This document shows, in pieces, positions 346 through 7,039 of a DNA stretch of 60,668 nt. Where the stretch lies: positions 1 to 60,668 of the forward strand of contig JAUWKI010000006.1 in NCBI GenBank assembly GCA_030614255.1. The letters run 5' to 3'. Below the pieces are notes generated by a model. The model saw only the letters and a list, made by a program, of their open reading frames with translations, was not told the DNA's origin and ran no database searches. Position 1 is the stretch's first letter; every line of letters starts with the position of its first letter. The stretch comes from Actinomycetes bacterium. Its GTDB lineage: Bacteria; Actinomycetota; Aquicultoria; UBA3085; Oleimmundimicrobiaceae. The position numbers and the translations under genes were made by a program.

Positions 346-1446
346 GTGAGGGAAATTTTAAAAGGAATAAGCCGTAGGGATTTCATTAAACATTCAGCAA
401 GTATGGCTGCTCTACTTGGGCTCTCCGAGCTTTATGTCCCTCAGATAGCGGCTGCTTTAGAGAACGCTGCGAAGAAACCGGCAGTTCTTTGGTTAAATGG
501 TTCTGGCTGCACGGGCTGCACGGTTTCATTAATTAACTCCGAACATCCCACACCCGCTGAGATTGTCTTAGGTATCTTATCTATCCGTTATATGGAAACA
601 GTGATGGCTGCTTCCGGTCATGTTGCGGAAAAACAGTTTGAGGATACCGTTCACGAGGGTGGCTATGTCTTTGTTATGGAAGGAGCCATTCCTACCGCTG
701 AGAATGGAGCGTACTGCATGATTGGCGGAAAGTCTGTGATGGAAATCGCCAAAGAAGCTGCCGCAAACTCTGTATACAACGTAGCGGTTGGTAGCTGTGC
801 ATGTTATGGAGGCATTCCCGCGGGAGATCCAAATCCCACGGGATGCAAGGGTTTAAAAGATGTTGTCGGTGGCACGGTGGTAAATATTCCGGGTTGTCCG
901 GCTCATCCGGATTGGATGGTAGGGACCATAACTCACATCCTCTTATTTGGCGAGGTGCCTGAGCTAGATGAGCACGGTCGTCCCAAGATGTTCTTTGGTA
1001 AAGTGATTCACGAAAATTGTCAGCGTCGCACTGGTTACGAGCTCGGTCACTGGGTAAAGAATTTCGGCGAAGAGGAGACGGAGATGGATTACTGCATGGG
1101 TGGAAAGGGCTGTCGAGGCCCAGTTACTCACGCCGATTGTCCAAGTCGCCTCTGGAATAGCGGAACGAACTACTGCATAGCCGCAAGCGCTCCCTGCGCC
1201 GGTTGTGTGGAGCCCGATTTTCCTGATTTTAAAGATGCTGACGGAAAAATAATCTCGCTCTATGCGCCCATCCCGGAGGTTGCGAAGTATAAAGAAGCTC
1301 TTGAAGCAGAAGTAGAGCACAAAGAAGGTATGGGTGCAGGAACAGCCGCTGCTCTCGGTGCGGTCGTTGGAGCCGCCGCTGGTGTTGCGGGAGGATATGC
1401 AATTAGCGGCAAAACAAAATCAGAAGAGAAGGAGGGTGAGAAGTAA
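346..1446 (+). CDS. [NiFeSe]-type uptake hydrogenase, small subunit
   Basis: This electron-transfer subunit carries the three Fe-S clusters that take electrons from the Ni site. The GTG start at 346 is chosen because AAGGAGGTG lies 9 bases upstream and it gives a clean Tat signal with SRRDFIK at residues 9-15. The proximal cluster motif GCTGC is at 55-58, with further cluster Cys in GSCACYGG, NIPGCP and the C-terminal half. At residue 277 a Cys (NYCIAA) replaces the Pro that standard [NiFe] enzymes have beside the medial [3Fe-4S] cluster, predicting three [4Fe-4S] clusters as in NiFeSe enzymes. A Gly/Ala-rich membrane helix at about 329-354 should anchor the mature protein on the outer membrane face. 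The large subunit gene starts on the base after the stop. Confidence 0.93.
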   Translation: MREILKGISRRDFIKHSASMAALLGLSELYVPQIAAALENAAKKPAVLWLNGSGCTGCTVSLINSEHPTPAEIVLGILSIRYMETVMAASGHVAEKQFEDTVHEGGYVFVMEGAIPTAENGAYCMIGGKSVMEIAKEAAANSVYNVAVGSCACYGGIPAGDPNPTGCKGLKDVVGGTVVNIPGCPAHPDWMVGTITHILLFGEVPELDEHGRPKMFFGKVIHENCQRRTGYELGHWVKNFGEEETEMDYCMGGKGCRGPVTHADCPSRLWNSGTNYCIAASAPCAGCVEPDFPDFKDADGKIISLYAPIPEVAKYKEALEAEVEHKEGMGAGTAAALGAVVGAAAGVAGGYAISGKTKSEEKEGEK

Positions 1447-3033
1447 ATGGGAGAAAGAATCACAGTTGATCCGGTTACCAGGATTGAAGGTCACCTGGCA
1501 ATCGAAGTTGAAGTTGAAAACGGTGTCGTAAAGGACGCTTGGAGCAAAGGAACCCTCTTCAGAGGAATCGAGCTCATCCTCCAAGGTAGAGATCCCAGAG
1601 ATGCCGCCATAATCACCCAAAGGATTTGCGGCGTATGTCCCGCTGAGCACATGCTCGCTTCTGTTCAGAACTTAGACAGCGCTTTCGGAGCCGAGGTTCC
1701 CAACAACGGAAGAATCATTAGAAACTTAGTTGCGGGAGCGAACTTCGTTCAATCTGCTATTTTGCACTTTTATCATCTGGCGGCCTTGGATTACTTAGAC
1801 ATAATGGCCGTGGCGAATTATGCTGGAAATGATGAGTATCTTCTCGAGGTAAAGAGAAAAATCGTAGGGCTTGTACAAGCCGGCGATACCGCTCCCCTTA
1901 CTCCCCGATATGAGCCGGACGAGTTTTGCGTAAGCGACCCGAATATCGTCACCGCGGCGGTTGGGCATTATCTGCAGGGGCTTGAGACGAGGAAGAGGAC
2001 TCAGGAGATGTTAGCTATCTTCGGAGGGAAGATGCCTCACCACGCAACCTATGTGCCCGGTGGAGTCACGGTGCAGGTTACCGCCGACAGGATATCGAGG
2101 TTCAAAGGATATTTAGATGAGATAACCGAGTGGGTAAGAAGGATTTACCTAAATGACGTTCTAACCCTTGGCACCGGTCCGCTGAAACCTTTGCATGACT
2201 TGAAGGTCGGCTTCGGTACCGGTAACTTTATCTCCTACGGAATGTTTGACCTCGGTGAGTCTGGCGACTATAACAACAGGTACTTAAGGTCCGGGCACAT
2301 TGCCGGTGGAGAATTGAAGCACATCCCGTTCGATCCCGAGAAGATAAGAGAAAATGTCAAGTATTCGAAATATACCGATGAGTGCACAGATAGGCATCCT
2401 TCTGAAGGAAAAACTATTCTTGATATCAACAAAGAAGGCGCTTACTCGTTCATCAAGGCGCCGAGATACGATGGGCGTTCCTCTGAGGCAGGCGCTTTGG
2501 CTAGGATGCTCGTTACTACCGCGGAAGGGAAAGACCCGGGGGTTACGTTGGCTGATGGGTCTAAGAAGACGTTGGCTCAAATCATTACCCCAATCGGGGT
2601 TCATCCGTCGGCGGTTGCTCGTCATGCGGCCAGGGCCTACGAATGCCTGCTGGTTTGCGAGGGTATGCAACAGTGGCTGCTTGAGCTTAAGCCAGGTGAG
2701 CTGGTATGTAATGACATAGCTGTTCCAAAGAGTGGAAAGGGCGCCGGTTTAGTTGAAGCTCACCGCGGAGCGTTGGGGCACTGGATTGAGATAGAGGACG
2801 GTAAAATCAAGAATTACCAGTGCGTCCCCGGTACTATTTGGAATGCTAACCCAAGAGATGATAACGAAGTTCGCGGTCCAATAGAGGAAGCGCTCGTTGG
2901 AACTCCTGTTCCAGACCCGCACAACCCAATCAATTTAGTAAGGGTCGTGCGGTCTTTTGACCCGTGAATTGGTTGCGCGGTGCACGTTGTGCATCCAGAG
3001 ACCAATGAAATCCTTAAGTTCAAGGTAACCTAA
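1447..3033 (+). CDS. [NiFeSe] hydrogenase large subunit with in-frame TGA (selenocysteine 507)
   Basis: This is the catalytic H2-oxidising subunit. The N-terminal Ni ligand motif RICGVCPAEH (Cys61, Cys64) is intact. A conventional reading frame ends at 2967 with ...RSFDP-TGA, exactly where the family motif DPCxxCxxH needs its first Cys. The same frame continues without interruption for 22 codons, IGCAVH then VVHPETNEILKFKVT, and stops with TAA at 3031-3033. This gives Sec507, Cys510 and His513, followed by a 15-residue tail of the size normally removed by the maturation protease after His. A hairpin of the expected geometry follows the TGA. I infer selenocysteine insertion; the sel genes are not in this window. 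Standard gene calling would truncate the protein and remove half its Ni ligands. Confidence 0.93.
2965..3006 (+). promoter_or_regulatory. SECIS-like element downstream of UGA in the hydrogenase gene
   Basis: TGA at 2965-2967 is followed directly by a two-part hairpin. The lower stem is ATTGGT (2968-2973) with ACCAAT (3001-3006), 6 bp. The upper stem is 2979-2985 with 2989-2995, 7 bp including one G-U pair, capped by the loop GTT. The loop begins 19 bases after the TGA and its first base is G, both within what is known for bacterial SECIS elements bound by SelB. The fold was made by eye, not by an energy program. Confidence 0.8.
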
Positions 3034-3036
3034 TTA

Positions 3037-3555
3037 ATGTTTGCCGAAGATATTAGGGATAGCGACTCCCAAAAGAAGATAGTTGTTCTCGGGGTAGGAA
3101 ATGTCCTACTCCGGGATGAGGGAGTTGGGATTTATGTCGTAAATGAACTAGCAAAAGAGATTTTGCCAGAAAACGTGGAAGTGGTCGACGGAGGATTGGT
3201 GGGACGCGATTTTCTGCCCCTTTTAGAAAGGGCCGATAAGCTCATCATAGTCAATATCTTAAAGAGGGACGATAAGCCAGGGGCGTGTTTAAAACCGGAT
3301 TTAAGCGAGGTTGAGAGGGCGCTCAAGGTTGAAGATACCTCGATAGATCAGCTGGCTCTCTTTAGCGCCCTAGACGATGTTAAAGTAAGGGGAAACTGTC
3401 CTGAAATTGTTGTGATAAGCGTTGTTCCCAAGGAAGTAGACGTCGGAATGGAATTAAGTAGAGAGCTTGAAGAAGCTATTCCCGCCATAATAGAGAGGAT
3501 AAGAGAAGAGTTCGATCACGGGTCAAATATGGGAGATTTCCAAAGAAAGGAGTGA
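3037..3555 (+). CDS. Hydrogenase maturation protease, operon-linked, with altered metal ligands
   Basis: HyaD/HybD/HycI-family endopeptidase (172 aa), expected to trim the C-terminal tail of the large subunit after nickel insertion. The N-terminal motif GVGNVLLRDEGVG (residues 19-31) is intact, including the Glu that binds Ni. Compared with the paralogue at 5484, two other metal-binding positions differ: the Asp of VVDA is Asn73 (IVNI), and the His of SLHE is Asp104 (SIDQ). Its position between the hydrogenase genes argues that it serves this enzyme, perhaps adapted to the Sec-containing site, or that it has become non-catalytic and the paralogue does the cutting. The gene begins 3 bases after the large subunit stop. 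Confidence 0.88.
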   Translation: MFAEDIRDSDSQKKIVVLGVGNVLLRDEGVGIYVVNELAKEILPENVEVVDGGLVGRDFLPLLERADKLIIVNILKRDDKPGACLKPDLSEVERALKVEDTSIDQLALFSALDDVKVRGNCPEIVVISVVPKEVDVGMELSRELEEAIPAIIERIREEFDHGSNMGDFQRKE

Positions 3556-3564
3556 GGATACAAA

Positions 3565-4401
3565 GTGAAGATAACTCGAAAGAGTTTTCTAAAAGCAGCT
3601 GGTTTGGGTCTTGCCTCCACAACAGGTGTCGTTACCGGTCTGGGCGAGCTAACGAAGGCTTTTGCCGAATCGAAGGGAAAGCACGCCTGTCTGGTTGAGC
3701 CCGGTCTTTGTGCGGGTTGTCTATCTTGCGCTATTGCTTGCAAGAAGACGAACGAAAATCCGGGTACATATGACTATTCTCCCGATTTGGGGGGAGATAC
3801 TTTCACCACGGTAAAGTTTAAAAACCTTGGAACCGAAGACGAGCCCAACTGGCTAAAGACCAAAGTGCAGTGTTTCCACTGTGCCGAGGCAAGTTGCATT
3901 GATGTTTGTGCCGCCGGGGCCATAAAACGAGAAGGAGATATCGTAAAGATAGATAAGGATATCTGCATAGGCTGCAAAAACTGTCACTATGCCTGTCCTT
4001 TTGGGGTGCCGAGGTTCGACCCCGAATTGGGGATAATGAAAAAGTGTCACTTCTGCAGTCACAGGGTGCCTGAGGGCTTACCTCCTGCTTGTGCGGAGAT
4101 ATGTCCGACCGACGCAGTCTTTTACGGAACCAAGGAAGAGGTTCTAAGGAGGGCTGAAGAAAGAATGGCAATTGTAGGAGGCAAGGCAAGAATTTACGGA
4201 AAAGATATTTTGGGTGGAACCGCCTGGATCTACCTTTTGGAAGATGAGCCCGAAGTCTATGGTTTCCCCAACGAGCCCAAATTCTCCTCAGCCTCCATGC
4301 CCGCAAAGTGGTTAACTGCTTTGATTGCCGCCGGAGGTCTTACCATCGTTCCCTACTGGTTGATTGCAAAGGAAGCTAAGGAAAAAGGAGGTGGCAAGTG
4401 A
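3565..4401 (+). CDS. HybA-like four-cluster ferredoxin subunit of hydrogenase
   Basis: Periplasmic-side iron-sulfur protein (278 aa) that passes electrons from the small subunit to the membrane subunit. The start is GTG with AAAGGAG upstream. The N-terminus looks like a Tat signal but reads TRKSFLK, with Arg-Lys instead of the Arg-Arg pair. Four Cys groups follow: C49-C52-C55-C59; CFHC with ASCIDVC; CIGCKNCHYAC; and CHFC with ACAEIC, in line with four [4Fe-4S] clusters of the HybA/DmsB/NrfC family. A hydrophobic C-terminal helix at about 250-270 resembles the HybA membrane anchor. Its stop overlaps the start of the next gene by one base. Confidence 0.9.
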   Translation: MKITRKSFLKAAGLGLASTTGVVTGLGELTKAFAESKGKHACLVEPGLCAGCLSCAIACKKTNENPGTYDYSPDLGGDTFTTVKFKNLGTEDEPNWLKTKVQCFHCAEASCIDVCAAGAIKREGDIVKIDKDICIGCKNCHYACPFGVPRFDPELGIMKKCHFCSHRVPEGLPPACAEICPTDAVFYGTKEEVLRRAEERMAIVGGKARIYGKDILGGTAWIYLLEDEPEVYGFPNEPKFSSASMPAKWLTALIAAGGLTIVPYWLIAKEAKEKGGGK

Positions 4402-5312
4402 TGGAAGGAACGCACTATTGGCACCATCTTTTGGCGGTCTATCTCTTCTTGGGAGGTTTGGCCGGCGCCTGCTTCTACACAGGGGCGCTGTTTGAACTCT
4501 TTGGCGGAAGCCGCATGAAGAGGGTTGCTAAGATAGGTTCATTTTGTGTTTTGCCAATTATTATAGTAAGTCTTATTATTCTAGTTTTAGATTTGGCAAG
4601 ACCCTTGTATTTCTGGCATTTCATCATCACAATTGAACCGACATCTCTTATGAGTCATGGAACCTGGTTACTTACCCTATTTTCGATAGTGGGCGGGGTA
4701 ATCGTTCCGGCCTTCTTCCTCTCTGAGGAGGAGAAGACAAAAAATTTACCGGTAATAAAGAACTTGGCGGGAAAAGATAACATCCGAAAGATCTTCTCGG
4801 TAATTGGTGTTATCTTAGGGTTTTTGGTCGCTGGATATACGGGAGTTCTTTTAGCGGTTACAACTGTTCCCTTGTGGTCGACGGTAAACTGGCTGCCCGT
4901 GGTCTTTTTGGCTTCGGCTTCATCCACCGGTCTTGCCCTGATCCTTCTCATCCTTTCTCTTTCCAAGAAGAAGGATGAGCTCTCCATGGGATTGCTTGAG
5001 AAGGCGGACTCGATAGTTATCGTCATCGAGATATTAGCTTTTGCTATTCTTCTCATAACATTAAACGCTGCAGGTGGAAGGGCGGCTGAAGCTGCCTCTG
5101 TTCTTTTAAGTGGAGCTTATGCTATCCCCTTCTGGATAGGCATAGTTGCAATTGGTCTTGTCATTCCTCTGACAATAGAGTTAAAAGGATTGACATCTAA
5201 AGAGGCTCATGGGAAGGGAACGGGTATGGCTGCCATCGCTTCCATCTTGGTGCTTCTTGGAGGATTCATGGTCAGATGGGTCTTTCTCTATGGAGGCCAG
5301 GTTGTGAGGTAG
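4401..5312 (+). CDS. HybB/NrfD-like integral membrane subunit
   Basis: Polytopic membrane protein (303 aa, about 8-9 hydrophobic segments) of the polysulfide reductase NrfD/HybB family. These subunits exchange electrons with the quinone pool and may couple this to proton movement. The start of the sequence, HYWHHLLAVYLFLGGLAGAC, is typical of the family. ATG at 4401 is preferred to the overlapping GTG at 4398 because AAGGAGG lies at better spacing. It overlaps the ferredoxin gene by one base, so the two are probably translationally coupled. It is the last gene before a strong terminator and completes a small-large-protease-HybA-HybB set, placing the enzyme with respiratory uptake hydrogenases rather than H2-evolving ones. 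Confidence 0.9.
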   Translation: MEGTHYWHHLLAVYLFLGGLAGACFYTGALFELFGGSRMKRVAKIGSFCVLPIIIVSLIILVLDLARPLYFWHFIITIEPTSLMSHGTWLLTLFSIVGGVIVPAFFLSEEEKTKNLPVIKNLAGKDNIRKIFSVIGVILGFLVAGYTGVLLAVTTVPLWSTVNWLPVVFLASASSTGLALILLILSLSKKKDELSMGLLEKADSIVIVIEILAFAILLITLNAAGGRAAEAASVLLSGAYAIPFWIGIVAIGLVIPLTIELKGLTSKEAHGKGTGMAAIASILVLLGGFMVRWVFLYGGQVVR

Positions 5313-5483: not shown

Positions 5484-5963
5484 TTGACGAAAAAAAAGAT
5501 AGTTATTTTGGGTGTCGGAAACATTCTTCTTAGAGATGAAGGTATTGGTGTAAGGGTTATCCAAGAGATGGAGAAGATGGATTTACCAAATGACATCGAG
5601 CTAATTGATGGGGGCACAGCTGGTTTTGATTTGCTTTATCCCGTTCAAGAAGCAGATAAACTGATTGTTGTCGATGCTATTGAAGCCGATTCTGAGCCGG
5701 GTGATATATTTAAATTTACTCCGCGAGATGTAAAACTTAAGTCAAAGGAAAAAGTCTCCCTTCATGAAATTGAAATTTTGGAAGTCTTAAAAATGGCCGA
5801 GCATCTTGGAAAATGCCCGGAGACGGTGATTTTTGGGATACAGCCGAAGGAGATAAATTTGGGTTTGGAACTAACCTCTGAGTTGCAAGAGAAAATTCCA
5901 AGGATAATAGAGTTAGTTTTGGAAGAGATTGAAAAGCTTAAAAGCAACGTAGCAGATGACTGA
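5484..5963 (+). CDS. Hydrogenase maturation protease, second copy, canonical ligands
   Basis: HyaD/HybD-family endopeptidase (159 aa) starting with TTG after GAAAGG. It keeps all three expected Ni-binding residues: Glu19 in GVGNILLRDEG, Asp64 in VVDA, and His94 in SLHE. It is clearly a paralogue of the protease at 3037; both share the frame IVxLGVGNxLLRDEGxG and the C-terminal PKExxxGxEL. It stands apart from the structural operon, after a terminator and just before hypA and hypB. It could process this large subunit or that of another [NiFe] hydrogenase elsewhere in the genome. Confidence 0.9.
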   Translation: MTKKKIVILGVGNILLRDEGIGVRVIQEMEKMDLPNDIELIDGGTAGFDLLYPVQEADKLIVVDAIEADSEPGDIFKFTPRDVKLKSKEKVSLHEIEILEVLKMAEHLGKCPETVIFGIQPKEINLGLELTSELQEKIPRIIELVLEEIEKLKSNVADD

Positions 5964-6023: not shown

Positions 6024-6359
6024 GTGCATGAAATGGCGATAACTGAAAGTATTTTGTCTATAGTTCTTGCTGAAGCAGAAAAAAGGGATGCAACGAGAGT
6101 AAAGACGGTAAAAATCGAGGTGGGGGAGCTTACAAACATAGTTGGGGACTGTGTTCAATTTTATTTCGAATTAATGAGCAAAGACACTCTCGCTAGTGGT
6201 GCTGAAGTGGAAATAGAGGAAGTGCCGCTTCAGGCTCGTTGTCCCAGTTGCGGGAGTGTTAAAAAGATAGAAAATCTTGATTTTCTTTGTGAGTGTGGCG
6301 GGGTCATGAAGATAATTGCGGGCAAAGAATTGGCAATTTCGGCTATCGAAATTGAGTAA
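6024..6359 (+). CDS. hypA: Hydrogenase nickel incorporation protein HypA
   Basis: HypA (111 aa) delivers nickel to the hydrogenase large subunit together with HypB. The GTG start gives MHEMAITESIL, with the N-terminal His2-Glu3 nickel site. The zinc domain near the C-terminus has CPSC and then CECGG, so the second pair is CxC rather than the common CxxC; this is a modest variant. hypB follows 17 bases later, as in most hyp operons. hypC, D, E and F, needed for the Fe(CN)2CO group, are absent from the window and must lie elsewhere if the enzyme is made. Confidence 0.93.
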   Translation: MHEMAITESILSIVLAEAEKRDATRVKTVKIEVGELTNIVGDCVQFYFELMSKDTLASGAEVEIEEVPLQARCPSCGSVKKIENLDFLCECGGVMKIIAGKELAISAIEIE

Positions 6360-6376: not shown

Positions 6377-7039
6377 ATGGAGATTAAGCTTCAGCAAAAT
6401 ATTTTAGCGGCCAACGATAAAATCGCTGTCGATTTGGCGAAGATTTTTAAAGATAAGGGCATCTATGTAATAAACTTAATGGCTTCTCCCGGGGCCGGGA
6501 AGACGAGCTTTATTCTGCATACTATTGAGGCTTTAAAAAATAAGTTAAGTGTTGCTGTAATTGAAGGAGATATTGCTTCTAAGGTGGATGCTGAGAAGGT
6601 TCGTGAGCATGGTGTTTCGACAATTCAGATAAACACAGGCGGGGCTTGTCACCTTGATGCAAATATGATTCGCGGTGCTTTAAATTTCCTCAATTTGGAC
6701 GAAACGGACTTAATCATCATCGAAAATGTTGGAAATCTAGTTTGCCCCGTGGAATTTGATTTAGGTGAAACTGTTAAGGTAGTTATATTAAGTGTTCCGG
6801 AAGGAGACGACAAGCCACTTAAGTACCCTCGCATATTTGCGGATTCTCAGGTTCTTATCGTGAATAAAATGGATTTATTGGATTATACTGACTTTAATGT
6901 AGATGGGCTTAAGAGAACCGTAAATAATTTGAATCCAGGTATTAATATCTTTGAGATTTCCTGTAAATCTGCTGACGGAATCGATAACTGGATATCATGG
7001 TTGAAAGATAAGACCGACAAGTTTCTCAAACTTAAGTAA
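6377..7039 (+). CDS. hypB: Hydrogenase nickel incorporation GTPase HypB
   Basis: GTPase (220 aa) that drives nickel transfer into the hydrogenase. The P-loop SPGAGKT is at residues 37-43, the metal-binding CHLDANM starts at Cys91-His92, and the NKMD guanine-specificity motif is present. It lacks the His-rich N-terminal nickel store found in some HypB proteins and starts directly with the GTPase core, which is a common short form. It sits directly after hypA on the same strand. Confidence 0.94.
   Translation: MEIKLQQNILAANDKIAVDLAKIFKDKGIYVINLMASPGAGKTSFILHTIEALKNKLSVAVIEGDIASKVDAEKVREHGVSTIQINTGGACHLDANMIRGALNFLNLDETDLIIIENVGNLVCPVEFDLGETVKVVILSVPEGDDKPLKYPRIFADSQVLIVNKMDLLDYTDFNVDGLKRTVNNLNPGINIFEISCKSADGIDNWISWLKDKTDKFLKLK

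Follow-up and report, generated by a model that had tools for sequence, protein, structure and literature searches.

The window analysed here, a 60,668-nucleotide stretch of contig JAUWKI010000006.1 from an actinomycete genome of the family Oleimmundimicrobiaceae (the source genome, G000), carries a NiFeSe hydrogenase operon in the order small subunit, large subunit, maturation protease, HybA, NrfD, second maturation protease, hypA, hypB (Table 1). For the small subunit, the longest open reading frame (ORF) begins at 286, but the start at 346 is favoured because the upstream extension carries an in-frame stop in a relative of the same genus (G001). In the large subunit, the TGA at 2965–2967 is read through as selenocysteine (Sec), yielding the C-terminus DPUIGCAVH plus a 15-residue tail, VVHPETNEILKFKVT. 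The hairpin directly downstream of this codon has a z-score of -1.59 against shuffled sequences, a signal that is weak taken alone; each of the five family genomes encodes SelB. PF00374 matches just this one large subunit in the source genome, which encodes exactly two PF01750 proteins. The ORF downstream of the second protease is taken from its sequence to encode HypA. Upstream of the operon, a short perfect inverted repeat, ccacggacgtaagtccgtggt, was spotted by eye at 95–120.

Table 1. Genes and features of the NiFeSe hydrogenase operon in the window
Feature	Coordinates	Strand	Evidence and remarks
Hydrogenase small subunit, Tat signal (SRRDF)	346..1446	+	PF01058, PF14720 and TIGR00391 matches; likely GTG start
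NiFeSe hydrogenase large subunit	1447..3033	+	NF033181, 737.6 bits (cut-off 600)
Hairpin directly 3' of the Sec TGA, in SECIS-like position	2968..3006	+	Fold of -16.8 kcal/mol
HyaD/HybD-type protease paralogue, "E/N/D" copy (E28/N73/D104)	3037..3555	+	3 nt past the large-subunit stop
HybA-like Fe-S electron transfer subunit	3565..4401	+	Fer4_11 and HybA-type models
NrfD/HybB-like membrane subunit	4398..5312	+	PF03916
Canonical protease paralogue (E19/D64/H94), first gene before hypA-hypB	5484..5963	+	PF01750, 107.8 bits
HypA (presumed), nickel insertion	6024..6359	+	ORF; tblastn orthologues in G001, G002, G004, G006 and G012
HypB, nickel GTPase	6377..7039	+	ORF; tblastn orthologues as for HypA

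The operon-linked protease lacks two of three metal ligands

The ORF directly following the large subunit encodes a protein of 172 amino acids that belongs to the hydrogenase maturation protease family, with matches to PF01750 (E = 1.6e-20; 73.7 bits against a cut-off of 23) and TIGR00072 (111.6 bits against 47.45). Both proteases score below the cut-offs of the narrower models, namely TIGR00140 for the HyaD/HybD subfamily (99.2 bits for the E/N/D copy and 141.5 for the canonical copy; cut-off 151.8) and NF045519 for NiFeSe maturation proteases, which the E/N/D copy matches at a level far below the cut-off (95.3 and 134.3 bits, respectively; cut-off 190). The first-pass annotation had noted that, compared with the paralogue at 5484, the operon-linked protease has replaced two of its three nickel ligands, and this is borne out, also against Escherichia coli HybD: Glu28, Asn73 and Asp104 align opposite Glu19, Asp64 and His94 of the paralogue and opposite Glu16, Asp62 and His93 of HybD (1cfz), which are held to bind nickel (PMC2670836). 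Given that Asp at position 73 and His at position 104 (E/N/D copy numbering) are invariant in 33 of 33 aligned canonical proteases, both losses are real departures, and the protein does not carry the [E/D]-D-H ligand set of an active endopeptidase. Misalignment or a wrong reading frame as the source of the missing ligands was ruled out by several alignments and by the comparison with HybD. The open-access literature searched yielded no account of a hydrogenase maturation protease without its ligands.

The two paralogues are 40–43% identical and share the same predicted fold. They differ in ligands and in genomic coupling: the canonical copy keeps the Glu/Asp/His set and is coupled to hypA-hypB, whereas the E/N/D copy is coupled to the large subunit. 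With the HyaD/HybD endopeptidases as a whole, the E/N/D copy shares the sequence family, predicted fold, Glu ligand, loop glycines and operon context, but the equivalents of T54, Q/E130, G128 and L59 are replaced along with those of Asp62 and His93.

Predicted fold and substitutions around the cleft

The AlphaFold2 model of the E/N/D copy (mean pLDDT 84.4; 86.9 for the canonical copy) has HybD (1cfz) as its best PDB match in Foldseek (E = 9.3e-13), that is, a HybD-like fold. Among 17 positions that are at least 90% conserved in canonical proteases, 12 are retained in all three E/N/D proteins detected (see below), four are changed identically in all three (L59F, D73N, H104D and G128S), and one, G82, is lost only in the copy of a second genus (G004). 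Two further positions differ across the clade, with T54, which belongs to a D(G)GT stretch suggested to touch the substrate (PMC2670836), replaced by Leu or Met, and Q/E130 by Val or Met; R57, R77, D78, D113 and D114 have been gained and are shared by all three proteins of the clade. Placed by the secondary structure of the predicted model, most of the changed positions would be found round the cleft, where strands end and helices begin. Because cleft changes are fixed in the clade while other near-invariant positions are kept, the substitution pattern resembles remodelling more than random decay.

Distribution of the E/N/D protease among relatives

The E/N/D triad is present in three genomes from two genera of a single family: the source genome, G001, which has the same operon and an E/N/D copy of 89% identity, and G004, where the copy is about 54% identical and directly follows a Sec-containing large subunit of 83% identity. 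In all three, the E/N/D copy lies immediately 3' of a large subunit with the DPU motif, and each genome encodes one large subunit and two proteases; a second hydrogenase requiring a protease of its own was ruled out, given one PF00374 protein per genome. The canonical copies of G001, G002 and G004 lead hypAB; in G004 this protease and hypAB sit on a separate contig, and in G002 NrfD, the canonical protease and hypAB are located at a contig start, so that the upstream portion is absent from the contig. G003 yielded no match to the large-subunit or protease family.

In the tree, the three E/N/D proteins group together as a single clade (support 100/100) on a long stem among the group-1 proteases, which may derive from either an operon protease or a hypAB protease. 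All other PF01750 proteases read, dozens from Actinomycetota, Bacillota, Desulfobacterota and other phyla, carry [E/D]-D-H, and no E/N/D protein outside the family was found in 62 contig loci or among the best matches that 397 genomes of the phylum gave. Judged by these sequences, the E/N/D protease appears to be a new form of the known HyaD/HybD type of protein that is confined to this family.

The new conserved charged residues might indicate that the protein has been neofunctionalised for another partner or metal, such as HybA and NrfD or a site for a hard metal, instead of the large-subunit precursor. We consider this very unlikely, as the E/N/D copy of G004 still adjoins the large subunit even though it has no HybA or NrfD gene next to it.

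Selection on the two proteases

Between the window and G001, omega of the E/N/D copy is 0.187 (bootstrap 95% interval 0.086–0.327), significantly below 1 and indicative of purifying selection. The corresponding value for the canonical copy is 0.065 (0.027–0.111), with an interval that overlaps that of the E/N/D copy; omega is 0.134 for HypA and 0.051 for the large subunit. The two proteases differ little in dN (0.061 for the E/N/D copy and 0.049 for the canonical copy), and therefore part of the difference in omega stems from dS. In the comparison with G004, where dS is saturated, the E/N/D copy has a dN of 0.41, the canonical copy 0.28 and HypA 0.36. These comparisons show that the E/N/D copy is constrained, perhaps less so than the canonical copy, and its higher omega is compatible with partial relaxation.

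The higher omega, together with the long branches within the E/N/D clade and the low identity to the G004 copy relative to that of the large subunit, would fit a relict: hypAB would have gained or kept a sufficient protease, and the operon copy, having lost its ligands in the family ancestor, would be decaying slowly with no dedicated function. Such a history seems quite improbable, however, given an omega significantly below 1, a reading frame intact in two genera, a dN to G004 similar to that of HypA, and the identity of Asn73, Asp104, Phe59 and Ser128 in all three copies, positions that would be free to vary under decay.

Proteases of other selenocysteine-containing hydrogenases

The first-pass annotation had suggested that a Sec site could require a modified recognition centre and that proteases adjacent to other NiFeSe hydrogenases be compared for the same Asn/Asp pattern. 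When this comparison was run, the pattern was not seen outside the family clade, the other proteases being [E/D]-D-H. Beyond the clade, this set is retained by at least 11 proteases whose genes are linked to DPU (NiFeSe) large subunits, either as E/D/H (G018 contig 6, G006, G021, L091 and L098) or as D/D/H (G013, G031, G018 contig 1, G035, G007 and G022). Moreover, G012, G017 and G021 each combine one Sec-containing large subunit with a single canonical protease; in G012 (Actinomycetota isolate Yes46-11), the Sec-containing large subunit, 71% identical to that of the window, has no adjoining protease, and the sole protease, E/D/H, is located at hypAB. The canonical enzyme therefore suffices for a Sec-containing large subunit, and a Sec-driven change of the recognition centre is not supported, given the canonical proteases beside other such subunits: Sec itself demands no altered protease. 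The annotation had also named, as counting against its reading, other NiFeSe-linked proteases that keep Asp and His, with the present one a lone degenerate copy; the former is what we found, whereas the latter is excluded by the triad common to three genomes in two genera.

The Thermincola-type operons (L047–L053) and that of G018 (L037) have the same order of small subunit, large subunit, protease, HybA and NrfD, and their large subunits carry DPC in Thermincola and relatives and DPU in G018; their operon-linked proteases, in contrast to the E/N/D copy, are all E/D/H. That the E/N/D copy occupies the place of the protease in these operons, directly after the large subunit, that it retains one ligand and that its cleft substitutions are fixed in all three copies could also mean that it still cuts the NiFeSe large subunit, with a site (Glu/Asn/Asp plus the new Arg and Asp residues) adapted to recognise the Ni-Se centre or some other signal, possibly independently of nickel. 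The retention of Asp and His in proteases linked to other Sec-containing large subunits makes this unlikely, as do the use of the canonical enzyme by single-protease relatives and the fact that the canonical copy, although well conserved, would then have no large subunit left to process.

A candidate non-cutting accessory in NiFeSe hydrogenase maturation

Since the genome offers its two proteases just one substrate and relatives get by on one canonical protease alone, the copy at 5484 is likely the cutting enzyme. In the explanation towards which we lean, the E/N/D copy does not cut but binds the precursor as an accessory, or pseudo-protease, and leaves cutting to the canonical copy; the loss of cutting, the binding of the precursor and the order of events are what we infer. 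Of the two alternatives offered by the first-pass annotation, a modified recognition centre or a chaperone beside a canonical copy that cuts, the latter fits best and is plausible, because one large subunit is accompanied by two proteases, the triad is fixed in a monophyletic clade, selection is purifying and the fold is intact.

Under this accessory model, an old, family-specific HyaD/HybD paralogue would have kept the fold and Glu28 while replacing Asp with Asn73, His with Asp104 and other positions of the active cleft. Synthesised immediately after the large subunit, the E/N/D copy would no longer cut but would bind the unprocessed precursor and hold or guard it until nickel is in place; the canonical protease, coupled to hypA-hypB, would then take over, read the inserted nickel and remove the 15-residue tail. 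Published work leaves room for precursor binding by a ligand-poor paralogue: HybD recognises its own precursor outside the C-terminal tail (PMC6769069), and an uncleaved precursor can remain in stable complex with its protease (PMC5299533). As reported in PMC10362691, replacement of Sec by Cys in a Desulfovibrio enzyme lowers nickel incorporation, so that holding the precursor may matter; relatives have Sec enzymes without an E/N/D helper. Against the accessory model, Glu28, Asn73 and Asp104 could still coordinate a metal through oxygen, the clade is defined by three sequences, and NiFeSe relatives do without an E/N/D copy.

In current understanding, the protease reads nickel through its three ligands. 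A paralogue conserved in nature without two of them, in a genome that also has a normal copy and just one substrate, would set precursor binding apart from nickel-dependent cutting, and the E/N/D copy could serve to test whether such proteases also act as chaperones. More tentatively, NiFeSe maturation in this family may involve a dedicated nickel-blind, precursor-binding pseudo-protease beside a nickel-reading canonical protease, both acting on one large subunit.

Variation in related hydrogenase loci

By gene order, the closest operons are those of Thermincola and related Bacillota (L047–L053), with large subunits of about 65% identity that carry Cys in place of Sec, which suggests that Cys and Sec have been exchanged and that the operon may have passed between Bacillota and Actinomycetota. 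In L055 (7685–14625), identical to contig 8 of G012, a gene for a molybdopterin oxidoreductase (formate dehydrogenase-like) lies between the Sec-containing large subunit and HybA/NrfD, suggesting a hydrogenase-formate dehydrogenase cluster. Finally, the NiFeSe small subunit of G004 (L034:9307–10386) has CTGD where the window and the other relatives have CTGC, so that one Cys of the proximal cluster is replaced by Asp, reminiscent of the 3Cys1Asp cluster found in group-5 hydrogenases of actinobacteria.
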